Shown here in pieces: positions 2,713-37,206 of a stretch of DNA of 64,000 nucleotides (its first letter is position 1; the number at the start of each line of letters is the position of its first letter). The notes below the pieces were generated by a model. It searched no databases, was not told the origin of the DNA, and was given only the letters and a program-made list of their open reading frames with translations. The position numbers were made by a program, and so were the translations under genes. This DNA comes from Zoroaster sp. YZ-2022 (Eukaryota > Echinodermata > Asteroidea > Forcipulatida > Zoroasteridae). The DNA is taken from the NCBI GenBank assembly GCA_029582265.1, contig CM055816.1:97165056-97229055 (forward strand), in the 5' to 3' direction.

Positions 2713-3060
2713 TACCCGTGTCGGTTCTGCAGGGCTTCCAAGGAAATCATTGCTAAGCAAACTGTGGAAGATGGGACTCTGGAAAGGACAAAGGAGAATT
2801 ATGCAATAGATGCTGCCCAGAACAATGTGAGTGCCACTGGTGTGAAAAGGGTTCGGAATCCACTACTTAAATCAACTAGATGATTATCATGTGATTGATA
2901 ACTTGGCCCCTGACATTATGCATGGCCTGTTGGAGGGTGTTGTGCCACTTGAGATGAAGATGACAGTGAGTTCCTTAATTTCACAGGGTTGCTTCACACT
3001 AGTTGAATTAAACAACCGAATAAGTGCATTTAATTACGGATTTGTTGAAAAAAATAAATA
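2712..3060 (+). pseudogene. Fragment of transposase-like gene, same family as 15145-17423
   Basis: The frame starting right after the (ATT)n tail reads a Cys-x2-Cys segment (YPCRFCRASKEI) and runs to a stop near 2881. One base off, the next frame continues with DDYHVIDNLAPDIMHGLLEG, VVPLEMK and ISAFNYGFVEK, ending near 3060. The same landmarks (HPCRFC, LEYFYLTENYA, PYELKH, RSFNYGF) occur in order in the minus-strand locus 15145-17423, so this is a central fragment of a paralogue with one frameshift. No N- or C-terminal part is present, and the left break coincides with the ATT tail. The family has no established name that I can give. Inference: a dead copy of a DNA-transposon-derived gene. 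Confidence 0.75.
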
Positions 3061-3846
3061 AACCCAGTTCAATCACTCAGTCAGCTTTAAACAATCCAGG
3101 AGGGGCAAGTGGTCAAAAAGTCTCACAAATGTGTGTTTACCACTTATAATTAACACGAGTGTTTCATTTACATAGCCCCGTGCGTAATTAAGTCCGAACA
3201 AACTCCAATGATTCATGGACCAAAAATAAAAATGGCGACCTCCATGGCGCATCAAAACAAATTCCATAACGACCCCAATGTTTTGATGTTTTTAATATTT
3301 ACTGTCCATATAATTACATCTTTTAAATCAAAAGTTTACTTTGTGTAAATATTTCTTCAAGATTTTGAGTAAAAGTGGTCTCAAAATAAATAATTACAAT
3401 TACAAAATCCGAGTTTTGCGTTGTTTGTAACTGACGTTAACTTTCGTACTTCGTTGAAATCAGACAATCTGCAAAATTCACGAAAAAAACAGCCATTTTA
3501 AAATACATTTCCATACAGGAAACACAAATTAAGATAAATATCTAACTATTAACTTACATTTCAAAGCTGGTCCAAGTCATTATTACACTCTTTTTATGCA
3601 TAATATTTGATAGTATTTATTGTTGGGAGGAAAAGACGCGGTTCTCGTTGGCAGTGTTACGTGTAGAATTCAATGGGGATGACGTCACAAAGCGCGCGTA
3701 ATGCAAAGTGTATAGTGCACGACAACACAGATTTTGACAGCTAGCGCGCCGTGAATTGAATGTACGAAGTGACGATAGCTGAATACAAAGAGGAATTTTT
3801 TGTGAGAACATGTCTTATATTTACCAATAAATAACAACTCAGTATC
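3060..3846. other. Non-coding interval, possible promoter of the following gene
   Basis: No convincing coding frame. The last 250 bp (3600-3846) is CpG-richer and holds a TGACGTCA palindrome (about 3680) and gcgcgc runs, ending just before the ATG at 3847. A promoter role for the RAG1-like gene is inferred from position only; no clear TATA box is seen. Confidence 0.3.
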
Positions 3847-4852
3847 ATGTCAATGATGAACTTTGATTTTCATGCAAATGCACTATCAAACCTATGCCGA
3901 TGCTGTGGAAACAGACTAAAGAAAAAGACAGACGAACAACGGAAATTGTTACAGTGCTGCAACTGCAGGAAAGAGATAAGTTTAATTTTGGCATCAACAC
4001 ATGGGAGGACACTGCTGAACAGCATCCTCGTTACATTTGTAACAATTGTTCTAGGAAAGTGAGACATTTGCAAGCTGGGACAAGACAGTTTACCCCAACA
4101 GAGAATACCAGATGACTGGCCACCACATGCAAGATCTAGAGAGTGTAAAGTTTGTACACTATTTACACAACAATCAACACTAAAGGGAAGACCTAGTAAA
4201 AGGAAATATTGCACAACTGTACACAAAAGTGATGAGAAATTGCCATTCAGCATTTACGATAACAATGTCTTTGGTAATTTAATAACACACGATTTCACTG
4301 GCGACATTTCCCCACATCTGGACATTTTTGGACGAAGGGAGGATCATTCCATGTTTACATGTTCAATATGCCAATGTATTATTTCCTTGTCATCGGTACA
4401 GACACTCTGTGAACATTATTTCTGTTCGTCGTGTTTATCTAGTTATTTTAAGTTTAAGAAGAGTTCGCAGGTGAAATGTCTAACATGCCAACAATGTGTT
4501 AAATACAATGAGGTCAGGGAGAGTTCGAGAATTCTGCAAGTTCAACTAAAAAACTTGGATGTTGTTTGCTGTGTGTGCAATGCATGTAGGAAAACTCACA
4601 AAGCTAGCACAACATTCTTGTAAAACCCTGACAGATGCAGCTTCAGAAAATGGAGATGCACAATAGTTGAGACAATTATACAAACAAATGAGGATGACGT
4701 AGTGAAAGCTGCTAACATACTAACGAAACATGCATCCCAACATCCTCATGGACAACCCATCCATTATGCCATCGAAAGTGCAACTGACAAGTGGACGTGG
4801 CTTAAGTTATCTCAGCAAGGCAAGGCTGTAACCTTAAAGACAGGAGGCAGGG
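3847..4852 (+). pseudogene. Exon 1: zinc-binding segment plus RING, RAG1 N-terminus-like
   Basis: Frame 1 begins MSMMNFDFHANALSNLCRCCGN, matching the LCRICGN opening of the vertebrate RAG1 zinc-binding dimerisation region. Near 3940 the readable frame shifts and continues with AEQHPRYICNNCSRKV (RAG1: HPTEFCHNC). Near 4080 it shifts back and reads IPDDWPPHARSRECKVC (RAG1: EWHPHTPSCDIC) and a basic RPSKRKY. A C3HC4 RING follows at about 4351-4500 (CSIC, CEH, CSSC, CLTC), then SSRILQVQLKNLDVVCCVC, the position of the first C2H2 finger in RAG1. A TAA at 4621-4623 interrupts the frame. The neighbouring frame there reads LAQHSCKTLTDAA, which would supply the missing His. The exon resumes with EDDVVKAANILTKHASQHPHG and ends VTLKTGGR before gtaaat. 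This ordered set of Cys/His motifs is the strongest evidence for RAG1 relationship. Confidence 0.72.
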
Positions 4853-4941
4853 TAAATATATTTTTTCACATATCAAAAAAGTTTCAACCTCACCTAGTTT
4901 TATAGTGCAAATGTCATGAACACAATTTATAAGGGATTATA

Positions 4942-6707
4942 CAGGGTGTCCCTGAAAAAAGGAAACCCAAGTTTTCGGGTACATTACTCAATAATTAATA
5001 ATTATTTTTTCAAAAATGTACACATCATTGGAAAGCTCATGTTCTCTTCTTTCATATGACACCATAATCATGATGGATGGGTCACGCATGACTGAGCAGG
5101 GACAATTTGTACTTGGTATGGCACATTGACATTTGTTCAAGGCAAATGAGGAAGTTATGCACACGTTACAATAAGGAATAAGGACACAGTTACACAAATC
5201 AATTTGTTTTAGGAATTTTTATTCCATTCCTTTCATGACTAACATTTTTTTCTGATTATGTGCTTGTCAAAAGACAAAGTTCAATGTCCTTCCACATGTC
5301 CACCATTCTTGTCCACACAAGCCTGTGCCCTTGTTCTCATGGCCCTCATTGCACAACGGATCACTCCCCTCTGCTGCCGCAGGGCCTCAGCCTCTGCGAT
5401 GATTCTGTCACGCAGATCTCCGATGTCACGAGGAGTGGTGAAGACCTTGCTCTTTAGATATCCCCACAAGAAGAAATCACATGGGGTCAGGTCCGGTGAT
5501 CTTGGCGGACACTCGGTGGGATGACGCACGGCAACAACTCTGTCGTGAAACAGTTCTCTGAGCCTATCTCTAACGATGACTCTGTGGTGAGCAGGTGCTC
5601 CATCTTGCACCCACCATAGCCTTCCGAAACTTCCATCTTGTTGGCGATGAAAGTGTAGCTCGAGGTGTGGTATCACCTCGTCGTTTATCATGCGCAGGTA
5701 TGCTTCACCAGTTAGGTTCCCGTCGAAGAAGAACGGACAAATCAGTGTACCGTTTCCACATAGTCCTATCCAGACGGATACCTTTTCCCGATTCACGTTC
5801 CTGTCGAAGTTAAATGGGGGAGGATTATGAAGAGGCGCATACTCTCGCACGTTCTGGTTGTTTACTTTTCCATTCATGAAGAACGAAGCCTCGTCTCCAA
5901 TCAAGATATCCTCCACGAATCTTGGTCCGTGACCAAGTAGCCATTGACAGTACCGAAGTCGTCTGGGCGGGTCTGCTTGCAGTAGCTGGTGGCGGCAGAA
6001 CATCTTGTACGGATACCAATGGATGTCCATTTGTACCATTCGATGGAAGGAAGTTTTAGAAATCCCTAAGCCATTCCTCCTCGTAGAGACGTTGGGGTTC
6101 TCTTCCAGAACGCGTTGGACTGCTTCGATGTTATTTTCTGACCTAACGGTCCTTCTTCGCCCAGATCGACCTTTGTTTAGGTTTAGACTTGTACCTTCTT
6201 GTTAATATTTTCTGATGTTTTTCCAAATTGCAGGAAAACGCTGCTGGAAAGCCGCAGCAACTTGCTGTAGGCTTCCAGAGCGAGCCCATTCAGTAACGAG
6301 AAACACTCTGCTCTGTTGTGAGCTGCATGGTCAGGCAAGTTTATGGTTTCGTTAAGCTGCAAAAGCTAATAAATGGAACTGTGTTTATTATCATGTACAA
6401 TTTTTCAGAAATGAATAATGGATTTGCTTAGTGAATTGCTTGTTATGCAACACATTTCCTGTCTTTTAAAAACCATAATGAACCCAATGTAGCAGCCATC
6501 CACTTATTTTGAACAATTGGGTTTCTGTCAGTGCCACTTCAGATTGTATGTAATCGGTCATGCGTGATTCATTGATCATGTTTATGGTGTCATATGAAAG
6601 AAGAGAACATGAGCTTTCCAATGATGTCTACATTTTTGAAAAAATAATTATTAATTATTGAGTAATGTACCCGAAAACTTGGGTTTCCTTTTTTCAGGGA
6701 CACCCTG
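4942..6707 (-). mobile_element. Complete DD41D mariner-like element
   Basis: The element starts cagggtgtccctg (4942) and ends cagggacaccctg (6707), flanked on both sides by TA (4940-4941 and 6708-6709). The terminal inverted repeats extend about 130 bp with very few mismatches and share gtacattactcaataattaa and ttggaaagctcatgttctct. Length is 1766 bp with one transposase gene on the minus strand. It sits wholly inside intron 1 of the RAG1-like gene. Near-perfect TIRs suggest recent arrival. Confidence 0.93.
5281..6328 (-). pseudogene. Mariner DD41D transposase, two lesions in N-terminus
   Basis: The C-terminal 252 residues are intact (6039 to 5281). Catalytic landmarks are LIGDEASFF (first Asp), WWVQDGAPAH (second Asp) and SPDLTPCDFF (third Asp). 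There are 41 residues between the second and third, the DD41D spacing known from rosa-type mariners. The protein ends ACVDKNGGHVEGH. The same frame extends upstream through an HTH-like region (KGRSGRRRTVRSENNIEAVQ; TRRNGLGISKTSFHR) to a TAA at 6204-6202. Beyond it the N-terminus (from an ATG at 6328, MQLTTEQ) is readable only with a one-base shift near 6310. A full product would be about 345 residues. As it stands the copy is probably inactive. Confidence 0.88.
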
Positions 6708-7279
6708 TACCTGACGTAACTTAAAGGGACAATATCGTCACGATGGAGAGGGCATGGAATTGGAGTGCTAGTTTTAGATTATAAATCTAGTGACTGAAAA
6801 CAATAATCCACATAATAAGGTCATATTACCGTTGCTGCTGCATAAGTGAGTCAGTAATTTTCAGTCACTGTGTTCATCTTAAACTAGGACACCGATTCCA
6901 TGCCCTGTTCCAAGTCTGCTCTGATCGTGATCACACCACGGCAGATTTCAGTGCCATACTTAACATTGTTAACATTTTGTACAGATTTAACTATATATTA
7001 ATAAAATATAAATTCCTATCCTAAAATATTTTCTTGTATAAAATGTACAAAATCATTTAATTTAATCTACAGCCAGTTCACATATGTCAAGTGCCACATG
7101 ATATGGAAAAACAACCAATTACAACTAAATGTGAAAGTAAAACACCAACTATGCCACCCAACAAGGCACTGGCCATGATGCGCGACTGCCATTTAGCATG
7201 GGACCAGATGCGCAAACTTAGACGGTATGAAAAATTCATTTTAAATTGACATGAACAATTTTTTTAAATCATATTTATA

Positions 7280-8222
7280 CAGTGTGTCTAAAAAAAATGC
7301 AAACAAAATTTAACGGAATGCCAGACGTAGAATGAGTAACCAACATAGATAATATAGGTATGGTGTGAAAGATACACCTTTCCACTTTAAAATGTGACAT
7401 CAAACGTCCAAATCCGATAATTTTTGACAGAGTTATGAGTACTTTTCCAAGAGAGGTCAAATTGACGATGGGTTTTTAAATGCAGTGATAATCGATTTTG
7501 TTTAGATCCCTTCCCACTCAACATACTCTCGCTCGATACACAGGCGACATCGTCTCTCCATGTCTCCCATCCCATCTGGAGTCTGCTGCAGGACGTCAAT
7601 CTCAGCTGTTATTCTGTCACGGAGAGTCTGCAGGTCCGGAGGGGAGTCGTGTACACCTTGGATTTCAAGTATCCCCAGAGGTAGAAATCACACGGGGTGA
7701 GGTCTGGAGATCTCGGTGACCATTCATGTACATGATTCAACGCTATGACACGGTCTCCGAACGCTTCATGAAGGCGGTCTCGGACAGCCAGTAGACGATG
7801 AGCTGGAGCGCCGTCTTGAGCCCACCACAGGCGCCTAAAGACAACTCGCTAAACACTATCCGTCCCCATGCTAAAAATGTTTAGCATGTAAACATGTTTA
7901 CAAACTGATAGCAAGAAAGTGTTTAGAAATGTGTTTAGTCGCTAAACACATTTTTGTAGGCCAAGCAATTATCCACACAGAGGCAATTAGGCTACCTTTG
8001 TCCCAATGCCTAAAATTGAAAACTTGGTCCCATCGTCAATTTGACCTCTCTTGGGAAAAGTACTCATAACTCTGTCAAAATTTATCAGATTTGGACGTTT
8101 GATGTCTCATTTTAAAGTGGAAAGGTGTATCTTTCAAACCATACCTATATTATCTATGCTGGTTACTCATTCTACGTCTGGCATTCCGTTAAATTTTGTT
8201 TGCATTTTTTTGAGACACGCTG
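7280..8222 (-). mobile_element. Internally deleted mariner relative
   Basis: Terminal inverted repeats of about 190 bp begin cagtgtgtctaaaaaaaatg (7280) and end tttgagacacgctg (8222), with TA on each side. Between them a minus-strand fragment of transposase (about 7500-7850) reads WAQDGAPAH, WSPRSPDLTPCDFYLWGYLK and a stop, the same family as 5281-6328. The N-terminal half and first catalytic Asp are missing. A 110-bp A/T-rich stretch with repeated gctaaacac/gtgtttag words (7855-7970) fills the deletion. It lies in intron 2 of the RAG1-like gene. Confidence 0.85.
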
Positions 8223-8254
8223 TATATACATATATATGGATCAAACTCAATGGA

Positions 8255-9972
8255 CCGGTAAGGCACCGGGCATTGATGGCATCAACCCGGAGTACATAAA
8301 ACATCAAGGAAAAAAGGCGAATGAATGGCTGTGCTCCTTCCTTTCCACCTGTCTCCGCTGCCTGAAGCTACCAAAGACCTGGCGCCGCGCCAAGGTGATT
8401 GCCCTGCCGAAGCCTAATAAGCCTAGGGATGACCCCAAGGGATACCGGCCTATCTCTCTGCTGTGTGTTCCATATAAGCTCCTGGAACGTCTCCTCCATG
8501 CACGTCTTAACACAGTGATCGACCCCCAGCTGCCCAAAGAACAGGCTGGCTTTCGAAGCGGTAGGTCAACGGCGGACCAAGTGACCCTCCTATGCCAGGA
8601 CATAGAGGACAGCTTCCAGGCAGGTGAGAAGGCGGGCACCGTCCTCCTGGATCTCACAGCTGCATATGACACTGTGTGGCTGCGTGGACTACATATGAAG
8701 CTTCTGGAAACCATCCCAGACAAGCACATGGTGAGCTTCAGAATAGAGATGCTGAGCAACCGCAGCTTTCGGCTACACACCAGCAATGGCCAAAGCAGCA
8801 GGGTGAGAAAACTCAAGAACGGTGTCCCCCAGGGCTCACTGCTGGCACCAATGTTGTTCAACATCTACATCCATGACCTGCCCGCAACCCAATCAAGGAA
8901 GTACGGCTATGCAGACGATCTGGCCATCCTACTCAGCAAGCCATCCTGGGAGGCAGTGGAAGAGGGCCTCTCTGAAGACATGAACATCCTGTCTTCATAC
9001 CTTAAGAACTGGCGCCTCAAGCTCAGCGTGAGTAAGACAACATCATCAGTGTTCCACTTCAACAACAGGGTGGCGACCCGTGACATGAATGTCATGGTGG
9101 ATAACGCCCGGCTACAGTTCCAGCCTGTTCCTACGTACCTTGGTGTGAAGCTTGACAGAACGCTGACATTCAAAAAACATCTGGAAGGCGCCAAGGCAAA
9201 GACAACCGCCCGCGCAGCACTGATACGCTGCCTAGCCGGTACCACATGGGGAGCCAAGACGAAGACACTGCAAATCTCGACTAAGGCTCTGGTGTTCTCC
9301 ACCGCAGAGTACTGCGCCCAGGTTTGGTGCCGTAGCCCCCACGTCAAGAAGCTGGATCTTGCCCTCAACAGCGCCCTGCGGATTGTCTCTGGATGCCTAC
9401 GAGCCACTCCGGTAAACCAATTGCCCGTCCTCGCTGGCATCGCCCCGGCTCAAATCAGACGAGATGCAGCCACGCTGGCCCTCGCTCGAAAGGCACAGAC
9501 TAGCGAATCCCATCTCCTCCACAGGATCGTCACAGAAACACCACGACGCCAGCGCCTGAAGTCCCGACGCCCCTTTGCCACATACGCACAGGAGCTGCTC
9601 CATACAACACCAGCTGATGCTTCCAAGGCCGCCTGGATCAAGACGAGATGGAGGGACCAGTGGAAGTCAGCAGAACCATCTAGGCTGCCCATATTCATCA
9701 ATGACCCCATGGACGTCCCTGGCCAGGACTTGCCCCGAAAGCAGTGGACAACACTCAACCGCTTGAGGACAGGGGTGGGACGATACGGTATAGCAATGAA
9801 GAAGTGGGGTCTAACGGAGAGTGCCTGCTGCGAGTGTGGGGACCCAACACAGACTGTAGAACACATAATCACCAGCTGCCCCAAACATCGTCCTCCGAAT
9901 GGAGAACACGGTTTGATCGACCTCGACGATGACACGTTGGCCTGGCTCGCCTCAACGGAGCTGCAGGTCTAA
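8255..9972 (+). CDS. Reverse transcriptase (C-terminal part of LINE ORF2)
   Basis: The frame is open from the insertion point to TAA at 9970-9972, about 570 residues; the apparent open frame upstream of 8255 is mariner TIR and target DNA, not protein. Reverse-transcriptase blocks appear in order: GKAPGIDGINPEY, GYRPISLL, EQAGFRSGRSTADQV, LLDLTAAYDTVW, NGVPQGSLLAPMLF and the YADD active site (codons 8908-8919), followed by TYLGVKLDRTLTF. The C-terminus has a Cys/His cluster (CCECGDPTQTVEHIITSC) as in Jockey/I-group LINEs. The endonuclease and any ORF1 are missing by truncation, so it cannot mobilise itself. The clade within the Jockey/I group is not decided. Confidence 0.9.
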
Positions 9973-9997
9973 AGACATACGCCAGAAGAAGAAGAAG
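8255..9997 (+). mobile_element. 5'-truncated non-LTR retrotransposon with 12-bp TSD
   Basis: The 12-bp word aaactcaatgga occurs at 8243-8254 and again at 9998-10009, directly flanking the insert. The insert starts in the middle of a reverse transcriptase and ends in an (AGA)n-like 3' tail (cgccagaagaagaagaagaa). This is the signature of target-primed reverse transcription with early stop. It lies in intron 2 of the RAG1-like gene, only 32 bp from the end of the mariner relative. The open ORF and intact TSD indicate a young insertion. Confidence 0.93.
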
Positions 9998-12686
9998 AAA
10001 CTCAATGGAGTCAATTATTCTACACTTTATGTACATTTTATACAGGTACTTTGCTACTCCTGTCATCACTTCTGAGAGATCTATGCGCTTACAACAGAAT
10101 AAACTTCTCAAGGACTATATTGAAGGGGAAATGGTCCCTCTGAAATGTCCAAGTGCCAAGGCCGATGCTGTCAATGGCTACATAATGAAAGATGTGCCTT
10201 TTGTCAAAGTAAATTACCTTTGTGCAATGATACTGGACTATTTGGACCGACTTGACCAGTAAGTTTGTACTTGTTCATATCAGTACATTTCTAGTTTTAT
10301 TCTTTTGACAAAACAAAATATTCGAAATATTGCACTGGTTATTAACTTGATTTGTTTTTCTCTTTAGGACTAGTTCCCTCACGTGGCATGATGGTGTAAT
10401 ACCCAGTGATGAGATATGGGTCAAATTGGGTGGTGACAAAGGTGGATCATCTTTTAAAATGGCCTTCCAGATAGTCAATGTGACACATCCCAATAGCCTC
10501 AAAAACACGGGCGTGTTTGCATGTTTTAATGCAGATGACAGCTATTACAACCTCCAGAAAACCCTTCCACAGGTACTCTGCCAAGTTGATGACTTGGCAA
10601 AGCTAAAATGGCGGTAAGTACTTTAGACATTGTCATTACGAGTAGCAAATTATTATCAATGGCCATTTACCAAGTTTAGTTATGACATGGTGTAGTATAA
10701 TACTTTATTTATTTATTGCAGTGGACATGTATTTCGCTTTTTGAGCTTCGGAGATCACGCCTTCCTTACAAAGTTGTATGGAATCTGTAGTTCTAATGGT
10801 ATGTATTGCACTTTTCCCTTGGTCAGTCAATATGTTCATAACAAAATAACCTTAAATACAAAAACTTTAGTATTGCACTTTACCTTTGGCCAGAATATAT
10901 TAACATGTACACGTATAAACAGTCATAAACAATATCAAGTTATCAAAATATGTTTTAAAATGGTTTCTCTTTTTACTTGCAGCATCGTGCTGCATTTACT
11001 GCAGAATAAGCAAGTCTGATATGCAAATCCCACTGTGTGAGAGGGAACATGCCTTCAAAAGATCGTTGCGGTCCATCAATGAGCAGTACCATCTATTTGT
11101 TGATGGGGAGAAACGAAACAAGGCCAAGGATGTTTCCTACAGTGTTGTTAGTAGGCCCATGCTCCCAGTTGAAATTGACTGTAAGTTTCAATAGTTTATA
11201 TTAAGGTGTGCAAATTATTCCAGTAAAAAATACTTCTATAGAACATTTACATGTGTAAATGATTTTCAAAATTTCCTTTTAATATTCAGGTCATCATTCC
11301 AACACTGCACATATCACTTGGTGTCTACAAGAAATTGTTTGATTTGTTTGAGATGGAATGTCATCAACTTGATGTGGCAATCCTTGAACAAAGGGCCATA
11401 GCAAGAGAGGATGAGTCAAATCAAACTACCAACTTCGACCAACAAATTGAATCCGAGACAGCCAGAAAAAGACAACTACACAAAGACCTACAGGAAAAGC
11501 GAATTCAATTGGAGAATCTTGAGGAAGAAATTCCTCTCCCTCTCCTTAATTGTACAAGCAAAACCACTAATGACGATGTTATCAAGGTTAAGTTGCTACG
11601 AGATCACATTGCTGACATGGTTGGTAATCATATCAACTTTGTTTAACAGGAGCAAAAGGCAGCTTCAACCGAATTGGAGTTTGGCACAGGACCAATTGTC
11701 AGTAGCTTGGATGATGTGCTAAACAGACACAAAGTGCAGAGACAGGCCTATCATGGCAAATCATTTGTAGGCAACCATGTCAACAAATGTTGTCAGGTAA
11801 TTAATGCAAACATTTTCTGACATAAAACGTCTTGTCTGTGATGATCTTAACACAAGTGAGCACTAGATACTTTTGGCTCAGTTTGCAGTCATTATACCAC
11901 TATACATTTCTACTGTTACTTAGATACCTGTCATTGAAGATCTCACAGCTCAACCTCTAAGGATGATTGATTATCTGGCACTTGATGATTTACCAATAGC
12001 AGCATACCAACGCATCCGGAGAAAATCTGCTGAAATCGGTCAGACATTCCAGGAGGTCTTTCTAAAATTTGCCGATGTCCACACAGCAATAAATCATGCA
12101 AATCCTCTGGAGCCTTCTGACATTGAACGTACAGGTACACTCCTCATGGTTTAACTTGCACAGCTATGCACAGGACACATACAAATGTTAAACTGATACT
12201 GGATTATTAAAAACAACTTTTCTTTGCTTCTTTCAACATATGTATGCATAAAATCATTCCTGCAAGTTTACCGGCAGTCATTTCCTCAAGCAAACATAAC
12301 TCTGAAGCTCCATCTCCTTGAAGACCACACCGTGGAGCAATTGAACAGGTTCCAGGTTGGTCTTGGATTGCTTAAGGCAAAGCTAACTAGCGTGATGCGG
12401 CGTCATCTTACAACATTTCCTGAGGTCAATTCAGAAATAAAATATTAATAATTAATGCTCAATTAATTTTCAAATTGGAACAGAAGCATATAAACAAGGG
12501 CTTTTTAATGGGTGAGGGAGTGGGCTGGGTTTCATAGGCCACTTAAATAAGTGTACATTTGACGTATTATTGTATTACAAAGAAGTTATGCACTGTCAGG
12601 ATTCACTTTCAAAAGTTGGTAAATGTATAGGTGACACTTTGGGAAGCCCATGTATGTTTTTAAGAGCTATGGGAGGCAGCCATTAA

Positions 12687-13657
12687 CTCTTTCTGTCCGG
12701 AATTATTTTACGTGTATGGAAGGAATTGTTTACACTATTGTCATTTGATAATGAAAACAACCAAGGTCAATTGTGGAAATTATTAATAATTTGTTTTATT
12801 TTTGGTCTATTGAAGAGACCCAAGTGTGAATATAGAGATGATACTTATCTGATGATTTACCCACAATTGTGGCCATCCAAATATAAAACATGTTTTCTGA
12901 AAAATAGATAAGCAATAAAAATGAAAGTTAGTATTATTAGTAAATTTGCAATGACACGTGAAATCATTCTCTTTTGAGATGTGAAGTTCTGAAAAGAACT
13001 GTTTGAAGTTCTGTAGATTATCATTTATTGTTGAAATTTCAATCAGTTGCCTCAACTGCTAGGCTATGCATCGATCTGCTGAGATTCAGCTGTGTACAGG
13101 TGTAGTGCAAAGACAGGAACAGATGAAGACCTAGTAGTAAGACCCTAAGGATGGAATTGGGGGTGATGTTTAGCCTACTGTGTGTGGGGGACCTTGGGTA
13201 TAGAAGACCCATTGGTTTCACTGCTAAGAAGTGGTCACAAACATAAATCTTGAAATGATCTTATCTTGAAATCATCTTGTCTTAAAATCATCTTGTCTTG
13301 GACAGACTGTAATTCTTTGAGACTTCATGATCTCTGTGCAAATAGAATAAGATATAATGGAAATACAATGGGCATATGGTTAGATAATTGTACACAATAA
13401 AATAAAAATTGCAACTCACTGTAATCGTGTGGAATGCTAACTACATGATCACATCAGATAATACCTACCATTTTTGTTATCTCCTGGTTATTAGAAGTTC
13501 ATGACCTATAATTCTTATTGGTCAGTTGCGCGCTTGGCTGTCAAAACAAGTCAAAACAAGACGCGCTGTTAGGTGATGACGTTCGAGCCTTTTAAAAGGC
13601 TTATTGTCGGTACGCGGCACGCGTGAGCCTTTTACAAGGCTTGCTGTCCAGAAAGAG
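12687..13657. mobile_element. Non-autonomous piggyBac-like element (TTAA target)
   Basis: TTAA at 12683-12686 is followed by ctctttctgtccgg, and the right end reads ctgtccagaaagag followed by TTAA at 13658-13661. The ends are short inverted repeats (ctctttctg) next to a duplicated TTAA, as in piggyBac-type elements. Near the right end gagccttttaaaaggctt and gagccttttacaaggctt form subterminal repeats. No transposase is encoded. Confidence 0.6.
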
Positions 13658-13661
13658 TTAA

Positions 13662-15140
13662 CTCCCAGCACTTGTGGGGATCAGAAAACATTAAAAAATG
13701 TAACGTTGAGGCACTGGCACTGCCAGCAAGAACAGAAGAAGGAAATGGTTATTATAATTGAAGTAATGTTAAATTTAAATATAACGTTAGGCCTGCATTT
13801 GTAACAATATTTAATGTTAGTGTCGAGTCTGGGGTTAGAATGAGTAAATCACAATAATGTTCATTTTTAGAGTAACTTTTGGACTTGGACAATATTTAAA
13901 TAAATTAAGTCAAGTGTAACACTAACACTACAGCTAGCATGGCTCGGTCTAAGAGTAGGAGGTTACATTGCAGACGATGAAAGATTTCACTGGTTCCTTA
14001 AATATTCCTTTGGTATTGCACAAAATAACATTCCTAGCAGTTGAAAAATGGCCAACATGTCTTAGGATAGTCCTAAAATCTTAATTCATTGATCCAAAAT
14101 ACAGAACACACACTATACGACACATGACACGTACTGTACATGTGCCCCGTGCGCGTGGCCGTGCTAACAATAACATCGTTAGGCCTAATGTGCACAAAAT
14201 ACCCATTAAGAATGACGGCGTGAACAATTTATTCACATCGGGGTCGATTTCGAACGTCTTTTTTGAACCTAAAAACCCCTGGCCCAGACTTACCTTTTAG
14301 ATGAAATGACTCTAGATGACTTGTTTTGACTATCAAAACTAATTTGCGGAGGATCTATAGCGGAGATTTGAAAAAATGGGCCTAAAACATGAGCGATTTC
14401 ACGAGCTTCTGATATTCGCTCAGCGCTGACGTCACATGACCCACTTCCCGCCGGAGCCTAGCAGTACGATTGTAAACAAAATTTGCATAAAAACATACTG
14501 GAAATGGACCTTTAATCAATATTCAACGATCGGAAAAATTATTTATGTAAAATTTGTCTGGTAGCCAATCAGTAATAAGTAAACAAAAAGGTCAAACGGC
14601 TGTCGGTTAGAATATTCATAATCTGGATGACGTCATGCACGCGTTGTTATCTACTGTCCATATGTGAACGACAGAGGGCGGTCTTTTTTATTGAGGGAAC
14701 AGCCGTGCACTAGCTAGCTGGAGCTGCCACTGTTACCGGAATTTGGATCACTGTGCTCGTTGGTGGCTGCCGTGGTGTCATCCTGCTGTTGTTTCTGAAT
14801 ATGGCATGAACATTTGCAATAATAATTAGTATTATTAAAAACTTGTCTAATGGCTGCATTTAGTTGATACTTATTATCAGGTACTAATATTAAAAGTAGC
14901 TGATGGTATCAAATAAATCACAATAAATAAAACACAAATAAATAAATAAAGCTATAGTCGAAGAATTGGGTAAACAATGCACAATTTAATCAGGGGATAT
15001 GGCTGTACACAAACATTATCTAAGTATAAATGCGTATGTGCTCAGATTAGACGAGATAACTGGTTCATCAGCAATGCATTAACTCCAATATAACACTTAC
15101 CTAATTAGTACCATGGCTTGTGCTTCATCACAATGTAACA
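13662..15140. other. Intergenic, no gene recognised
   Basis: No convincing coding frame on either strand. Two TGACGTCA palindromes (14427-14434 and 14628-14635) lie in a CpG-richer part (14400-14700). The tract 14880-14960 is A/T simple sequence. The 3' part of the minus-strand transposase-like gene begins at 15145. Confidence 0.5.
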
Positions 15141-15144
15141 GTCC

Positions 15145-17423
15145 TCATTTCCCTGTTGTTTTGAACTTCTGAAATGCACAGGCTGAGAATCTAGGGTAAT
15201 CTTTGGAGACGTATCTTTCAACATTGGGGGCTTCACTTTTTTCACACAGTAGGCAAACACGTGTAGTGAGTTTGCCACAGTTCAACAATGAAGTGAACCA
15301 CACTATCCAGAACATAAACATACAGGATTTTCCCAAAGTATCAACATCAAAGTGAGGGGTTTCTGATTCAGTATCAACATCCAGCACAAGGCCCATACCA
15401 GGACGATACACAATTCCATTGTATTTCACCCACTTTGCAGAGTACAGATCTTCATAGAGACCACAGTTCAGCAATTCTGAAATTATGGCACTGCTTTCAA
15501 CATTGGCCAATACTGTCACACTGCCATTACCTATCTCTAGGGCTCTAGAATTGATGTGGGCATTGGAGTAGAAGCAGTAACACTGTGCCAACTGATGTCT
15601 CATTGCCATTGTCTTGCAGATATTCTTGAAATTGCACACAATGTGAGAGAGCCGCCTGAAGAAATTGTGTTTAGCTTCGAACCGCATGGCCCAGAATCTG
15701 ACAATTGGTCCCGCAAGTCGTATACACCTTGGGTAGTGTGTCATGTAATGCTGTTTTGGTAGAAGCCTATTCTGTGGAAACAACTCTTTGAAAAGTTCGA
15801 GATGATCTGAAATTTGATGCTTAAGAAAGAAAGTTGCTTCACTTGATATAGCTGGTGCAAATACCACTGCCATAATCTCACAGTGATCATCATCTTCTGG
15901 AATCTTGTCTCCGAGCATCAAGGGCAGCACTCTCATCAAGCACCACATTTCACTTGCCTTTTGCTTCACTCTGCCATCAACGCTGTTGATAGAGTTCATT
16001 GAAATCTCTGCTGGCTTGCTGCCAGAGTCAGAAAAGCCATAATTGAAGGAGCGGATCCTTTCATTTAGTGTGTCAAGGGTCACATACTTTTTCTCCTGAA
16101 TGATCGCCTTTAATATATGCTTGAGCTCATAAGGGCATATCAAGGAAGTCGTGCATAATTTTCAGTAAGATAAAAGTACTCAAGATCATTCAGTTTTGAT
16201 GGCCCAGTAACTCCTGTCTCAGATATCAATGTGGGATCTTCCGCCACATCCCTCACATGCTGATCATGGGAAGCTCTATCTCTCAAAAGTCCTCTCCTTT
16301 CAAAGTAGGTAGTCTGCATCGTGTCTTTATGTATGATGCAGAATCTACATGGGTGGTTGGCGGCAAAACTTTCAGTGAACCCGAAGAGGCCATGCATGCC
16401 CAAATTGTCACCAGAAACTTGGCCTAAGGCTATTGTGACATGTATATTTGTGTTGTTTACACAGATCTGCATCTTTTCCTTGTGTAAATGCTTCAATTCA
16501 TCCACTATATTCTCAAGAATTCTGGAAAAGCTATACTTCCTGTCTGCTGAATAGTATATTTGTAGAAGGTGGCAATTGACCAGCAAGGAGTTGTATGCAG
16601 CAGGCAACTCTTTCACAATGTAGTAAAAGAAGCCAAGCTTGTGGACACCTGTGTGACTGCCGAGTGGATTTGTTGTTTCCAGATCATCGTTGAACAGACC
16701 TAGTGAAATGCAGTTAGGTTGAGACAGTAAAACACTGTTTTTGTAGTGCTGGCCATCATGGAAATCTCTGAGTACACCATCATTCTTTGACTTGTTCTGT
16801 TGGATAGCCTCCCATACACCAGGCAGCTCCAAGAAGTTTTTCAAAATTGCCAGGAAAGGCACATATGTCATTATGTCACACTTTACAACCTGAGTTGTAA
16901 CTCCTGAGATCCTATGGTTCTGCTGGCTCAATTCTGTGACCGAGTACCTTTTCTTGTGGCATTATGAGAGACCCCTCCCTCACAAAGTATTTGTTCTCCA
17001 TTGACTGAGATATGAGGCCATGAAATGTTGTTCGTGGAGCTCAAACTTGGACTGTAACGTAAGAGTGAATTTGTATAGATGTTTCACACTATCTTTTACA
17101 ATACTTGAAGAGTTCTCTGCAACCATGTCTGCATTAAGCATAGTCATCGACCCACTGGCTCGCATTTTAGCTATAAATACAGCTGCTTGTTTACAGACAC
17201 CGTGCTCATCATGTACTGACCACTCTGTTTCATCATGAGGGGTTTCATTTCCAATTTCAATGTCTGACTCGTATGAATTAATGCTAACACCATCATTGAT
17301 ATCTTGCTTAATTATAACTTCTTCACATTCTGGGTGAAACTGGAGTAGGTGTTTGCGGTAAGAACTATACCTAGAGAATGTGCGCATACAACCATCTTGA
17401 TAACACAAATATTTCATCCTCAC
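15145..17423 (-). pseudogene. C2H2-containing transposase-like gene, frameshifted
   Basis: Read on the minus strand, the first block (17423-16980) begins with a C2H2 finger (CYQDGCMRTFSRYSSYRKHL ending in His-x4-His) and an acidic linker. One base shift near 17000 leads to MENKYFVREGSLIMPQE. The second block (16931-16140) has NPLGSHTGVHKLGFFYYIV, a candidate acidic residue in VSGDNLGMHGLFGF and a CRFC pair. The third (16143-15145) has ELKHILKAI, SFNYGFSDSG, KQHYMTHYPRCI and RFEAKHNFFRR. This matches a large family of unnamed, transposon-derived proteins in fish and invertebrates; I know its appearance but no accepted function. Between blocks two and three a small deletion has removed the PDI...LEGV motif still present in the paralogous fragment at 2712-3060. 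The pieces read as one unspliced ORF with at least two lesions, hence pseudogene. Confidence 0.72.
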
Positions 17424-17439
17424 TAATTACATTGTGCAT

Positions 17440-18269: not shown

Positions 18270-18564
18270 TCACAAGCCTCTGAAATGTACCACACAGTAT
18301 GCTTTACTTCGTGTAGGCTACATAGTTTCAATCAAAATGACAACTTTGAAAAAGTCAGAACTGAACTCTATAAAGTAAAAACTCACTAGTAATTGACAAA
18401 AGTATTACCATATGCATGCCATAGGCATATATGGAACCTATCAGAAAACCTATATCTATACTGTCGAGCATTCTGGAACACACAATAATGTTTGATTCTG
18501 TGGTGAACCATTTAATTGAACTATCAGTTGTACTGTTTATTTTGTTAAATAATTGAATTGAACA

Positions 18565-18591
18565 AGTATTACATTGTTTTATGGCGCCAAC
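18565..18591. repeat. Detached copy of the 19250-19600 repeat end
   Basis: The words attacattgttttatggcgcc here recur at the end of each unit of the tandem array starting near 19250. One unit edge is therefore separated from the array by about 700 bp that includes the 145-bp hairpin. Confidence 0.6.
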
Positions 18592-18685
18592 ATCTAGTAT
18601 TGTTATACCATGGTCTTAGATTGTATAATTTCATTGGTCGAAAGCCTGTCACATGACAAATCACAAATCTTCATGTTACCCTCGT

Positions 18686-18745
18686 GACGTCACTCAAAAA
18701 GTGATGTTCACCTCTGACGTCACTCAAAAAGTGATGTTCACCTCT
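18686..18745. repeat. 30-bp unit repeated twice, with TGACGTCA
   Basis: The 30-bp unit from gacgtcactcaaaaagtgat to ttcacctct is present twice without change (18686-18715 and 18716-18745). Each junction creates a TGACGTCA (CRE-type) palindrome. Confidence 0.9.
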
Positions 18746-18956
18746 CAAGAGTGGTACATCACCCTGATCGTCCCCGGGAGTATCATCCCCATATATCTTT
18801 CACAAGTGCTACTTTTGATTGCAAGAAGTGAAAACAGCGACAGAGGTTGTTATATTGCTGGTACTCCGCAGAACACGCTATATTTCAATTTGATGCACTG
18901 TAGGGACCAGCTAAACAACTTGTCTGCTGTGTGTGAATTTGTTCGCTTCGTCGACC

Positions 18957-19068
18957 ATGCATGCAGTACGAATAGTTCGCGAATACTGCAACGAAACGGG
19001 ACGAGATGACAGCAACTTCAAGACACTTCCAGTTACAGACTTAGACAGTTTACTGGAAGATTTCTTCG
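18957..19068 (+). CDS. Possible coding exon, orphan
   Basis: An ATG at 18957 opens MHAVRIVREYCNETGRDD, SNFKTLPVTDLDSLLEDFF and stops short at a GT donor (g|gtaacg). The pattern resembles the N-terminal helical part of DUF3504/Crypton-type recombinase-like proteins (a conserved LD.LL..FF motif), but I recognise it only weakly. The 145-bp hairpin element starts 27 bp downstream and no continuing exon was found in the window. It may be an exon remnant. Confidence 0.3.
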
Positions 19069-19095
19069 GTAACGTAATCTAATACGGTATAACAA

Positions 19096-19240
19096 AATAA
19101 TTGTTGCCTGGCGTGATGGGGGTCCATGGGTTTTGTACACCCTCGGGGGCTGATGGCACCCTCGGCTTCGCCTCGGGTGCCATCAGCCCCCTCGGGTGTA
19201 CAAAACGCCATGGACCCCATCACGCCAGGCAACAATTATT
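19096..19240. mobile_element. 145-bp near-perfect hairpin
   Basis: The arms aataattgttgcctggcgtg... (19096-19161) and ...cacgccaggcaacaattatt (to 19240) pair over about 66 bp with three or four mismatches around a short loop (ctcggcttcgcct). This is a GC-rich foldback in AT-rich surroundings, most likely a MITE. A transcript would fold into a long miRNA-precursor-like hairpin. Confidence 0.85.
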
Positions 19241-19249
19241 AAATGTACA

Positions 19250-19600
19250 TGTAGAGCAGTATACTTCATGCACACAGTACACACAGCCGGTATCATACAC
19301 TCCTGTCATTGCATTGCTTGTGTACACACAGTGCAGTGTTCCACTTTGCATACCGATTTGCATAAAAGTATTACATTGTTTTATGGCGCCATCCCCATTG
19401 TACTTCATGCATACATTACACACAGCCAGTCATACATTCAGTCATGTCATTGCATTGCATTGCTTGTGTGTACAGTGTTCCACTTTGCATACCGATTTGC
19501 ATAAAAGTATTACATTGTTTTATGGCGTCATCCCCTATATACATCATGTAGAGCAGTAACTTCATGCACACAGTCATGACAGTACACACAGTTAAGAGTG
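19250..19600. repeat. Tandem repeat, about 130-145 bp unit, about 2.5 copies
   Basis: Each unit contains gtacacacag, cattgcattgcttgtg, gttccactttgcataccgat and attacattgttttatggcg. Units begin near 19250, 19395 and 19530; the last is partial. It can be read through in some frames but has no protein features. Confidence 0.8.
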
Positions 19601-20267
19601 AAGTTCAATAAATCACTGATGTTCTAATACTGTTAGTAATAAGTCAACAAGTTCATCATTTTCTCAATTCTTCATTATGTGGGATCAATTAAAGCTTCTC
19701 CCATAATTCTATCGGATTCGTGCCCTCATTCTAATGTTACTTCTAAACCTTTACAAAATGGTGAATTTTGGACCACAGTGACCACAGACGATAAACATTA
19801 AACGTTTCAAAAGCAAAACATACACAGATAATCTATAAACTTACTACTTCTGTCTAAGTTGATACCAAATAAAATGTAAACATATATCCTACCTGAAAAG
19901 CAGAGGAAACTGACAAGGATGCAAGCAGCGGATTGTAGAGGATCGAAGGTAGCAGTTTGACTTAGATAGTGATAGTTTGAAACCGCCGCCGCATGTCATT
20001 AAAATGCCGACCACAATGTCGTCACACAGCAGCTAGCAGCAGCTCCTCGTGGCTCAGGGTCATTCCACTTTTATGCAGGGTCATTCCAGAGTAATGACAT
20101 CTTTGACAAACAGGACTGAAATTTCAATTCCTTGTTTGCCATTAAATATCTTATTATTGACAAAGTTTTGTTATACAATTATGTTCTACTTCCCTTTGGA
20201 ATTTCCTGTGAGAAGCTGGAACAGGTCATCTTGCACCCCCAAAATAGCGGATTCGGTCCTACTGTAG
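19600..20267. other. Intergenic, nothing recognised
   Basis: AT-rich DNA with no protein, RNA gene or repeat that I recognise. Confidence 0.4.
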
Positions 20268-20690
20268 GCAACCAATAAGGATTGGTTGATGGTTGAACCA
20301 ATGTGATTGGTTACCGGACAACCAACCTAACTGGCCACTAGTGGACCAATGTATTGGTTAAAACAATAAGGATTGGTTCATGTCTGAACCAATAACCAAT
20401 AAGGATTGGTGGCTATTCCAATGTCAACCATTGAAGATTGGTTAATTGCTGACCCAATGTGATTGGCTGCTTGACAACCAACCTATTGGTCACGAATTGT
20501 GACCAATATCAACCAGTAAGGATTGGTTCATTGTTGAACCAATGCGATTGGTTGCTTGACAACCAATCACATTGGTCACTATTGACCAATGTATTGGTTA
20601 ACGGATTGGTTTATGGCTGAACCAATGTGATTGGTTGCCGGACAACCAACATGTTGGTAGTTTTTTCAACCAATCCGTTTTTAGGGTGTA
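20268..20690. repeat. Array of alternating CCAAT / ATTGG words
   Basis: About 420 bp is built from short variants of gattggtt and aaccaat separated by 8-25 bp, so that CCAAT boxes alternate in both orientations (well over fifteen). Phrases such as ggattggttcatgtctgaac and aaccaatgtgattggttgc recur with changes. The array consists of nested palindromes rather than a clean head-to-tail tandem. Confidence 0.8.
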
Positions 20691-22386: not shown

Positions 22387-23277
22387 CTAGTACCCTGAAG
22401 CTCTGCCTTCTCTCTCCACGACTTTTGGTAGGACTTCATGCAGATGACTTGTGTACTTTTGGCACTTCTTCACAGTCATCTTCTGTGCCCAAAACTGCCT
22501 TGGCTGAATGCTTAACATGCTTCCTTAAGTGGCCTTTCAGTTCCGCCCATAGGTTTTCGATTGGATTCATATCTGGAGACTCAGCTGGTGTACGCCACCA
22601 GTTGATGCGCAGCTCGTCCATAACCTGTTGCGCTGGCCTACTTGTGTGCTTAGGATCGTTGTCCAGCTGGAAGCGGTGCGCCCTACCCAACCGGCTGGTC
22701 AGAAAAGGGTTCAGCCACTGGCGCAGAATAGTATCGCAATAATAATGTGCGGCCATGATTCCATCGAAAACGCTTATGCCAGTTGCGCCTCGCATGGAAA
22801 TCCCAGCCCACACGTGGACTTTAAGCGGATGCTTGGGTTTTTCTTTGAGGGCAGCTGGCATATTCATTTTCCGGAAAGATCTCTTGTATGTCGCTCAATC
22901 TGGATTGAACTCTCATCTGACCAGATGACATCATCGAATGTGTCTTTCTTGGCAAGACACAGCCTCGCAAAATCTAGGCGCTTGGGCCGATTGGCTTCCC
23001 GAATGAGTTGACAGTAACTAGTACCTTTGAGAACCCATCCGAGCTTCCTCCTGGCCCGTCGAATGGTCGGCTGCGGAATGACATTGCCCGTTGTAACAGT
23101 CTGCAGTTCCTCCGCGCTTAGCTCGCTATTTTGTTCTAATTTGTGATCGATGATGTCTTGTATTGCGCTGTAATTTTGCTGCTGCGGCCCGGCCTCGGCA
23201 AGTCTACCAGACATGGAGAGTCCCTGTGCGTTCAACAATGTGATGCGGTGACGAGTGTAGGTGCTGTATCGTGTCAT
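22387..23277 (-). pseudogene. Tc1-like DD34E transposase, two frameshifts
   Basis: From the ATG at 23277 the protein starts MTRYSTYTRHRITLLNAQ with a helix-turn-helix region (PQPTIRRARRKLGW). The catalytic set is complete: VIWSDESS, FQLDNDPKHTS and MNPIENLWAELK, with 34 residues between the second Asp and the Glu. A one-base shift at about 22866 splits it into two overlapping frames (23277-22864 and 22867-22436). Near 22440 a second shift would give a typical C-terminus (HEVLPKVVEREG) and a TAG at 22389-22387; otherwise the frame ends in TGA at 22436. A TATA box and start-site-like motif precede it, and a histone-type mRNA 3' end follows within 30-80 nt. A full product would be about 295 residues. 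Confidence 0.85.
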
Positions 23278-29560: not shown

Positions 29561-30300
29561 TGTCCCACTGTACAAATACCTCTGTTGGGCCTGTTCCTGT
29601 AGGCTTGCTTGAAGCACAGATACCAACAGTACCACTTTCTATTCAGACCACATCTTTTAATTCTCCTGAGAAGAGACCGGAAGACTTTCGTGTAGATGGG
29701 GAACCAAGGGTTTATGATCCACTTCCAACGAAGCAAAGAAACAGTCGGAATTACATAGTTAAAACGAAAAGAAACAACGGAGAGGCTTACAACTCTGAAA
29801 AAAGTGAGAAACAGATGCAAGCAAGGAGAAATAGCTCAATGGAGAGACCCTGTACTGGTTGCGAATCAAGAAATATTGATTGTTGGAAGATAACACAGGA
29901 AGAGCGTCACGTTCTTCGCAATACCTACTATGATCAGAGTAATTTGCAGCTGCAAAGAGAGTGGTTGAATCGCCATATAACAGTTAGTCCACTTGTTGGT
30001 AAAAATGGTAGAAAGAGTCTTACACGTACATATTTTCTTGCTTGTAGCAGTAACACCTTTGAGAAAAGGAAGGTTTGCCGACATGTTTTTGAAGACTCTG
30101 GGTATTGCCGAACGCCAAGTCCGGACAGTAGTAGAGAAACACAATCCACTGGGCATATTTGAGAGGGAGAAGAGGGGTGGACGGCAGAATCCAGCCAAAT
30201 ATGAGCGACTAAGGGCTGAGGTGAATCAGCACATCGATCTCTTTCCCAGAATGGAATCTCATTACTGCAGTACCTCTCTTCTGATCTTAACTACCAAATA

Positions 30301-31419
30301 ATGTATCAAATGTACAAGCAGAACCATCCAAATGGTGCCTCACTGTCGCTGTACAAATCTGTATTTACATCACTCAATTTCAAGTTCCACCATCAAAAAA
30401 ATTATATCTGCGGGTTGTGTGATTCATATCGACGGGGAACTGTTGAGCAACAAGTTAAGCTCCAGGACGAATATGACAGGCATCTTAGGGAAAAGGAGAA
30501 AGCAAGAGAGTGTAAACACTTAGCAAAAGAGAGGGCATTGGGTGACAAGTCTTTTTGTGCTGCAGTGTTTGACCTACAACAAGTGATATACTTGCCACAA
30601 TCAGCAAGGTCAGAGCTTTTTTACAAACGCCGTCTGGCTTGTTCTAACTTCACCATTTACGATCTCAGTAGCAAGGATGGGTTTTGTTATCTTTCGCATG
30701 AAGGACAGACAAAGCGAGGGTCATGTGAAATAGCCTCCCATGTACACCACTTTTTACAGCTTGCTGATGGTAAAGGGGTTAAGGAAGTCAATTTGTTTTG
30801 CGACGGATGTGTTGGTCAGAACAAAAACTCCATACTTCCAGCAATGATGTTGTATTTTGTAGGGCTTTCAAAGTCTGTAGAGGTTATAACTTTGTCCTTT
30901 TTTGAGACGAACCATGGTCAATCAGAAGGTGACTCGATGCACAGTTGCATTGAGCACGCCGTGAAGCAAGTAGGTGAGATCATAGTTCCATCACAACTTG
31001 TTACCATATGCAAAATGTCAAGGAAGTCTCCCGGCCCATATAGCATCAACTCTATTCGATCTTCAGACATCATCGACTGGAAATTGTACAGCCAAAAGCG
31101 GGGGATGCTGCGTGTTAGAACATCAGAAGATTGCCAGAATGTTGACTGCACCAAATTCATGCAAATAAGGCTCATGAAGACCAAACCCGATGAAGTAAGG
31201 TTCAAATACTCACATTCAGCCCTTGACTTCTCTGTTCTGAAAGTTGGAAACAAACGCCGAAGTGGAGATGAAGTCGTACAGCCAAATCCTTTGTACTACC
31301 TCGGGCCACCGAAGCTTTCTCAGGCTAAATATGATGATCTCCGTAGTTTGAGCACAGGGAATACGCCTGTAGTAGCTCATCCTGAGTATCAAGCATTCTT
31401 CTCAAATCTTCCACACTGA
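30301..31419 (+). CDS. RNase-H-like/DDE catalytic part of the transposase-like gene
   Basis: This 372-residue open frame begins MYQMYKQNHPNGASLSLYKS. A zinc-binding start (YICGLCDSYRRG) is followed by a basic helical linker. Candidate catalytic landmarks are AAVFDLQQVIYLP (Asp), VNLFCDGCVGQNKN (Asp) and FFETNHGQSEGDSMHSCIE (Glu/Asp). The FCD.C.GQNKN signature is typical of the DUF7869-type family, thought to be a transposase-derived RNase H fold; the exact superfamily is unassigned. The true start lies upstream in the broken part. The uninterrupted length suggests it decayed recently or is still selected. Confidence 0.7.
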   Translation: MYQMYKQNHPNGASLSLYKSVFTSLNFKFHHQKNYICGLCDSYRRGTVEQQVKLQDEYDRHLREKEKARECKHLAKERALGDKSFCAAVFDLQQVIYLPQSARSELFYKRRLACSNFTIYDLSSKDGFCYLSHEGQTKRGSCEIASHVHHFLQLADGKGVKEVNLFCDGCVGQNKNSILPAMMLYFVGLSKSVEVITLSFFETNHGQSEGDSMHSCIEHAVKQVGEIIVPSQLVTICKMSRKSPGPYSINSIRSSDIIDWKLYSQKRGMLRVRTSEDCQNVDCTKFMQIRLMKTKPDEVRFKYSHSALDFSVLKVGNKRRSGDEVVQPNPLYYLGPPKLSQAKYDDLRSLSTGNTPVVAHPEYQAFFSNLPH

Positions 31420-36006: not shown

Positions 36007-36139
36007 TGATGAGGGCGCAACAACAGTAACACGTTTTCTTGACTCCGCAATTTAATTCATGTTTTATCTATTTACTGAAACTCAGTCTAACTGATAGCCT
36101 AATCTGTATCCTATTCACGATCCTACTCGACCACTGATC

Positions 36140-37069
36140 ATGTCGGACACACAGGAAGCCAAAAAGTCTCGAGCATCGAAGAGAAATGAGGGGAAATCCA
36201 GGCCAGAATCACGAACCGAGTATCAGACAGGACAAAATGGCTGCCACTGCACATGTGAATGCAACAAAGGCGGGAACGATGCAGTCCACACGAAGCTCGA
36301 CAAAATTCTCTCCTCACTGGAGAACATGGGGTCGAGGCTTACACACTTGGAAGACAAGTGGGAGAAAATAAACGATGTCATCAATAGTCAGCAAAGCGAA
36401 ATCAGCGAACTTAAAGAAGCTGTGTCCTACATGGAGAAGGAGAATGATACAATCAAGAAAAAACTCGACAGCAAAGGAGAAGACCGTAGAGTGGCTTACC
36501 TTGAGTCCTCTATTGACGATCTCCAAAATCGTAGCCGGTGGTACAATGTCATCTTGCACAACATCCCAGAAGGCTCTGACGGTACTCTACAGTGTGAGGA
36601 GTTTGTATCCAAATTCCTCACGGATCACATGAAACTCGAAGGTGCCAAGCACATCGAGGTAGACCGAGCTCACCGTACTGGACAGCGACGCCGGGACGGT
36701 AAATCAAATAATGGAGATCATCCCTGTGACCGCCAAGGATCTGCCCGTCCAAGACCGATACATGTCAAGCTTTTACGGTTCACCGATAAAGTCAAGATCC
36801 TAAGAAATGCATCTAAACTTCTCAAGAACAATCCACTAGAGGGCTCCGCCATTTTTCTGTCAGATGATGTGACACCCAAAATAAGACAAATGCGCCAAAT
36901 ACTGAGGGAAAAGCACCTCCCCGGTTTACGTAAAGACACTCGAGTAAACTTCGCCTATATCCCGTGGTCTCTCCCTGCAGTCATCCGCTATCAGCTAGGA
37001 GTGGGGAATTTAAGTCATTTTCGGTTGCGGAAGCCAAGTGAGTGGATGTGTATACTAAGCTTGTTTTAA
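36140..37069 (+). CDS. LINE ORF1 protein (RNA-binding)
   Basis: The 309-residue frame starts MSDTQEAKKSRASKRNEGK with a basic, Cys-containing N-terminus (CHCTCECNKGG). A long heptad-rich coiled coil follows (about residues 50-125: LDKILSSLENMGSRLTHLED and on to LESSIDDL). An RRM-like block begins NRSRWYNVILHNIPEG and the C-terminal domain runs VDRAHRTGQRRR...IHVKLLRFTDKVKILRNA. This is the usual layout of L1/L2-type ORF1 proteins, which trimerise and bind the element's RNA. The last 30 residues look atypical and may reflect a late frameshift. Confidence 0.85.
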   Translation: MSDTQEAKKSRASKRNEGKSRPESRTEYQTGQNGCHCTCECNKGGNDAVHTKLDKILSSLENMGSRLTHLEDKWEKINDVINSQQSEISELKEAVSYMEKENDTIKKKLDSKGEDRRVAYLESSIDDLQNRSRWYNVILHNIPEGSDGTLQCEEFVSKFLTDHMKLEGAKHIEVDRAHRTGQRRRDGKSNNGDHPCDRQGSARPRPIHVKLLRFTDKVKILRNASKLLKNNPLEGSAIFLSDDVTPKIRQMRQILREKHLPGLRKDTRVNFAYIPWSLPAVIRYQLGVGNLSHFRLRKPSEWMCILSLF

Positions 37070-37206
37070 CTTTTATATAAGTATTGTATACACTGTGCTT
37101 AAAGATTAAGTATTATCTATTCTAACTTGTTTTGTCATTATGTGTAACACCAGTAGTGAGACCGGATGTTTATTAAATTAACTTTCATACCTACTCAATT
37201 TGTTGA

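Follow-up and report, generated by a model that had tools for sequence, protein, structure and literature searches.

A probable fossil Chapaev-type transposon with the domain order of RAG1 in the starfish Zoroaster sp. YZ-2022

Chapaev transposons carry the Chapa zinc domain and, in two subgroups, a RING (Kapitonov and Koonin 2015, PMC4411706; for this and the other papers cited, statements refer to the accessible parts of the text). The CMCT clade comprises EnSpm, Mirage, Chapaev, Transib and RAG1, which share C(2)C and H(3-4)H motifs (PMC12730594), and N-RAG-TP is composed entirely of RAG1 N-terminal-like sequence (PMC8355894). Here, a 64,000-nucleotide stretch of the Zoroaster sp. YZ-2022 genome (contig CM055816.1, positions 97,165,056 to 97,229,055; hereafter the window) was analysed. 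An element at positions 3154-14707 of the window, about 11.5 kb long and thus longer than the first-pass annotation had it, is most probably (roughly 0.88) the fossil remnant of a cut-and-paste DNA transposon of Chapaev type. With described Chapaev elements (PMC4411706) it shares a Chapa-type zinc front, a RING and a Transib-superfamily core; it differs in that the window copy is decayed and its subfamily has ends of its own. Nothing was seen that excludes membership in the CMCT clade, although the window copy lacks the E (PMC12730594). N-RAG-TP of Aplysia, compared by its description and not by sequence, likewise places a RAG1 N-terminal-like protein in a transposon, but the window element has a RAG1-like core after this front (PMC8355894).

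The limits of the element were located by comparison with related copies in the same genome:

3154..3163, + strand: left terminal inverted repeat, CACGAGTGTT in the window; in copies L029, L030 and C20 it reads CACGGCTGTT and forms the left part of CAC...GTG inverted ends
14698..14707, + strand: right terminal inverted repeat, AACAGCCGTG, the right part of these ends, intact in the window, L030, L056 and L058

Copies L030 (contig C12) and C20 can be aligned to the window from 3153/3154 onward, and their flanks differ. When the first 307 bases (3154-3460) were used as a genome query, five places including the window were found, four of which start at the first base. Both ends are present in L030, where CACGGCTGTT is paired with AACAGCCGTG over 10 identical bp and TCCT stands on each side. 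A 4-bp target duplication is a trait of the Chapaev group. A search for ends in C20, L032-L034 and the window gave no convincing pair. Copy L029 lies about 100 kb away on the same contig and has its left flank in common with the window. The right flank of the window is common to L056 and L058, both of which also share another sequence upstream of the equivalent of position 6879. Because the left flank matches L029 and the right flank L056 and L058, the locus has been reshuffled, probably by segmental duplication.

Ten exons were recognised where nine had been annotated, and every motif named in that annotation was found in the sequence:

3847..4851, + strand: exon 1, broken, with RAG1_imp_bd (Chapa)-type zinc motifs, RING and zinc pair
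3892-3909, + strand: LCRCCG, exon 1
4023-4049, + strand: HPRYICNNC, exon 1, in another frame
4114-4128, + strand: DWPPH, exon 1
4144-4155, + strand: CKVC, exon 1
4360-4491, + strand: RING, exon 1
4567-4587, + strand: zinc pair after the RING, CCVCNAC, exon 1
7073..7224, + strand: exon 2, with AG/GT borders, in phase with exons 1 and 3, found by tblastn with P0001
10046..10258, + strand: exon 3
10368..10613, + strand: exon 4, with GGDKGG and NADD; part of the PF06918 match on joined exons 2-7
10429-10446, + strand: GGDKGG, exon 4
10722..10798, + strand: exon 5, with FGDH
10747-10758, + strand: FGDH, exon 5
10983..11180, + strand: exon 6, with CCIYC; in phase with exon 7 only if it ends at 11167
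10988-11002, + strand: CCIYC, a CxxC pair as in RAG1 ZnC2, exon 6
11290..about 11622, + strand: exon 7; an end at 11619, before a GT donor, puts it in phase with exon 8
11650..11796, + strand: exon 8
11924..12134, + strand: exon 9
12267..12448, + strand: exon 10, with KLHLLEDH; a 75-bp segment is absent
12305-12328, + strand: KLHLLEDH, an HxxxxH pair, exon 10

Seven of the nine junctions (1-2, 2-3, 3-4, 4-5, 5-6, 8-9 and 9-10) are in phase with GT/AG sites. At junction 6-7 the stronger donor at 11181 is out of phase and the weaker donor at 11168 is in phase; the former is favoured because relatives retain the residues in between (VELD, VEVD). For junction 7-8, a 30-base intron (11620-11649) gives an in-phase join and the next donor does not; copy C20 has a longer stretch at this position. 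The proposal that the phases join thus holds for exons 2-10, with reservations at junctions 6-7 (weaker donor) and 7-8 (30-base intron). Exon 1 had been read as one frame, which was not borne out: the frame of HPRYICNNC differs from that of LCRCCG and DWPPH, being lost between 3909 and 4023 and regained between 4049 and 4114, and a TAA is present at 4621. The GGRP at the border of exons 1 and 2 presumably resembles the start of the RAG1 nonamer-binding domain, a likeness that no test supports.

The N-terminal region is of RAG1 type beyond a generic RING, as had been suggested. A profile of the pre-RING region of the family (ten rows, one of them the joined window row) was compared with the N-terminus of a RAG1-like gene from the same genome and gave an hhalign score of 49.3, versus a maximum of 19.5 in 100 shuffles in which Cys and His were fixed in place. 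RAG1_imp_bd, used as a stand-in for the Chapa domain with no Chapa model applied, matched eight of the ten family rows, and zf-C3HC4 matched all ten (both at E up to 1).

In the catalytic region, joined exons 2-7 matched PF06918 (Pfam, E 1.2e-20), which we take to be a marker of Chapaev, and relatives of the window core share GGDKGG/GGDHGG and EQG.E. PF12940, the RAG1 core, was not matched by the window pieces at E up to 10, and the 13 PF12940 places in its genome do not include the window. The predicted structure of the core of the relative P0001 has the RAG1 core fold, with 16% identity in the structural alignment. As modelled on this relative, the region is of the DDE RNase-H-like kind that had been anticipated, and the predicted RAG1/Transib fold extends over its length, which speaks against the former idea of a RAG1-like N-terminus on a different transposase. 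The DDE positions were assigned by the structural model and by spacing in relatives. GGDKGG likely carries the first catalytic Asp, and the second is likely to sit in FGDH of exon 5. NADD of exon 4 was considered as well and is probably not catalytic: both the order of strands in the model and the spacing of 19 residues favour FGD. RAG1 and its RAG1-like (RAG1L) relatives ProtoRAG and TransibSU are similar to the element in domain order, core fold and the 19-residue Asp-CxxC spacing; they differ in the PF12940 match, in the low identity given above and in the residues around the catalytic acids.

Relatives of the element are numerous. A query with the RING region gave 150 matches with 34-100% identity, four of which, the window among them, reach at least 86%; these are all 150 scored among 585 candidates, and the count is a lower bound. 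As judged by eye, about 100 of these 150 rows have no internal stop. The catalytic query gave at least 186 matches from 140 scored of 918 candidates, again a lower bound. Exon 1 is open in some related copies (L013, L023, L028), and the domain order of the window element recurs in the single proteins P0001, P0004 and P0006 and at loci C20 and L032. Most of the closest proteins come from starfish (Asterias, Acanthaster, Patiria); one comes from a sea cucumber and one from a lancelet.

With a broken exon 1 and no catalytic Glu segment, the window copy is a relic that cannot transpose. A 75-bp segment coding for NEQGGE... is absent at 12375/12376 and is kept in L056 and C20; the third catalytic acid, an expected Glu, was lost with it. 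Substitutions were counted by the NG86 method after removal of codons with gaps or stops. Non-synonymous and synonymous changes between the window and its close copies numbered 9 and 0 for L056 (527 codons), 4 and 0 for L029 (259 codons), 13 and 3 for L058 (506 codons, ratio 1.17), and 27 and 5 for L030 (237 codons, ratio 1.36). With the distant L032 the ratio was 0.12 (562 codons; dS 1.57, near saturation). The family thus evolved under constraint, and the recent changes of the window copy look mostly unconstrained, the comparison with C20 (see below) being less clear.

RAG and Transib act as dimers on the element ends, which are nicked, cut by way of hairpins and inserted with a short target duplication. 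In intact relatives of the window element, one protein would do all the work. Its front would consist of N-terminal zinc modules, the region that Pfam names RAG1 importin binding, followed by a RING and zinc pair as in the RAG1 dimerisation domain, and then by a core of RAG1/Transib type in which an RNase-H DDE site has a CxxC/HxxxxH zinc site placed between its second Asp and its Glu. By analogy with RAG and Transib, a dimer may bind the CAC...GTG ends, nick them and then cut via hairpins, and insertion would generate a short target duplication, of which one 4-bp case was seen (L030). Dimerisation is the probable role of the RING, which may also have ubiquitin ligase activity. Nested elements later interrupted the window copy, and it was rearranged, probably by duplication.

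Three other explanations were weighed. A host gene domesticated from a Chapaev transposase, with part of the protein kept and catalysis shed through loss of the Glu, would account for the 75-bp loss being in frame and for exons 2-10 being readable in one frame with two unusual splice choices. It is improbable given that exon 1 shifts frame and carries a stop, that changes relative to close copies look about neutral rather than constrained (9:0, 4:0, 13:3, 27:5; C20 less clear), and that the inverted ends are still recognisable. The locus had been described as either an N-RAG-TP-like element or a host derivative; a transposon of the N-RAG-TP/Chapaev kind was upheld, and a host derivative is unlikely because of the inverted ends, the many related copies, the broken exon 1, the lost Glu segment and the relaxed substitutions. 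Still less credence is given to a RAG1 or RAG1L gene of TransibSU/ProtoRAG type instead of Chapaev. Domain order and fold are alike in the two, but PF12940 was matched neither by the window pieces nor, in the list of 13 places in its genome, at the window; the core matches PF06918, GGDKGG/GGDHGG and EQG.E are common to its relatives, and the sole duplication found measures 4 bp, versus the 5 bp typical of Transib (PMC4411706). That an unrelated RING gene lies by chance beside a transposase fragment is barely conceivable: the RING alone is not specific, but the same domain order recurs in P0001, P0004, P0006, C20 and L032, and full-length relatives contradict a chance neighbourhood. All three explanations were rejected on these points.

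Several observations also weigh against the reading as a Chapaev-type transposon with a RAG1-type front and core. The ten family rows are not independent (L026 and L028, for example, are 99% identical). In the window, RAG1_imp_bd scored 22.6 bits, just below the Pfam cut-off of 23.3, and in one exon-1 piece only; neither the exon-1 piece with HPRYICNNC nor the RING piece matched, nor did the whole proteins P0001 and P0004 (E up to 1 and 0.1). Taken by itself, the RING is no closer to RAG1 than to TRIM2 (53.7 versus 52.1); a single-sequence PDB search with it placed TRIM2 and TRAF6 above RAG1, and TRAF6 tied with 1rmd. When sequence profiles of the core and of RAG1L were compared, the probability was 23% and only the Glu region aligned; a PDB profile search with a seven-row alignment returned three weak rows, none of them RAG1. 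A clean target duplication was found in one copy only (L030, 4 bp TCCT), and the window copy has no matching duplication at its own ends (TTAA left, CACT right). The window element may be a composite, since its two halves have their flanks in common with different copies. The ratio of non-synonymous to synonymous rates between the window and C20 was 0.55 (42 and 20 changes; NG86, 796 codons). Finally, the putative assignment to Chapaev derives from architecture and ends and not from comparison with a named Chapaev sequence.

Three further elements are nested in the introns of the transposon:

4940..6709, - strand: mariner-like element in intron 1, with arms 4940-5140/6509-6709 and an open reading frame (ORF) at 5284-6201
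7271..8231, - strand: mariner-like fragment in intron 2, with 178-bp arms (95%); type read from ORF 7502-7848
8232..9990 (ends approximate), + strand: non-long terminal repeat (non-LTR) retrotransposon fragment in intron 2; Pfam RVT_1 E 2.1e-34 in ORF 8116-9969

ORF 5284-6201 gave no Pfam match, its mariner-like type being read by eye. Another transposase-like family, with the words LNERIRSFNYGF and LNNRISAFNYGF, is present on both sides of the element (15148-17426, - strand; 2846-3061, + strand); the three right-hand ORFs scanned gave no Pfam match. Short direct repeats, several with AACCAAT...GATTGGTT-type units (families D2, D4, D6), lie at 18480-20667, followed by a DDE_3 transposase fragment at 22439-22894 (- strand; Pfam E 9.9e-12) and a 399-codon ORF at 30220-31416 (+ strand) that matches DUF7869 weakly, below the cut-off (E 6.1e-5). 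ORFs at 36098-40097 look non-LTR retrotransposon-like by eye (coiled-coil, endonuclease-like and reverse-transcriptase-like pieces); the piece scanned, 38356-39015, gave no Pfam RVT_1 match. An ORF resembling an integrase core domain lies at 57694-58314 (- strand; PF24764, E 7.2e-10); next to it is a FIFSRAVIFIFESSYFYF-type tandem coding repeat, which recurs at 45166-45907.

RAG1-like genes were observed elsewhere in the genome. L001 (G000:C2:32196065-32200735) and L003 (G000:C1:102180779-102184834) have a PF12940 core and damaged frames; upstream of the core, on the same strand, they carry a RING, a CxxxxC...H zinc pair and a match to RAG1_imp_bd (E 3.1e-8 for the L003 piece). For echinoderm and echinoid RAG1L, absence of this RING domain is reported in the accessible text of PMC7204232 and PMC9885083. 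L002 (G000:C22:3650982-3655652) represents a second RAG1L core type with a 557-codon match free of internal stops, and a kelch-like plus PHD-like ORF, recognised by eye, lies tail to tail with it on the opposite strand, an arrangement known from RAGL transposons. In the window no RAG2-like kelch was matched among ten ORFs scanned, shorter exons lying outside that scan.

The relevance to the origin of the RAG1 N-terminus, which the first-pass annotation had pointed out, is real and was already argued for Chapaev in 2015 (PMC4411706). What the present analysis adds is the predicted full-length likeness to RAG1, an improved position for the second catalytic Asp, and the observation that this genome also has RAG1L with a RING. 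A literature search (Chapaev/RAG1, echinoderm RAG1, starfish) returned no report of the window element or of a Chapaev-RAG1 structural match, a weak negative since subscription papers were mostly outside its scope. The predicted structural match of the core to RAG1 lends the placement made by Kapitonov and Koonin support that goes beyond sequence motifs. We lean slightly towards the view that Chapaev transposases are collinear with RAG1 throughout (zinc modules, RING and zinc pair, RAG1-fold core, same active-site spacing) and that the complete RAG1 plan is therefore older than the split of the Chapaev and RAG lineages and was inherited whole; the RAG1 N-terminus would then not stem from an N-RAG-TP fusion, and echinoderm RAG1L and Transib would have lost parts. 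If this is true, the RING-bearing RAG1L of the same genome would be a surviving unreduced form. With many related copies and a RING-keeping RAG1L in one genome, fusion versus whole inheritance becomes testable by trees and structures within one species.
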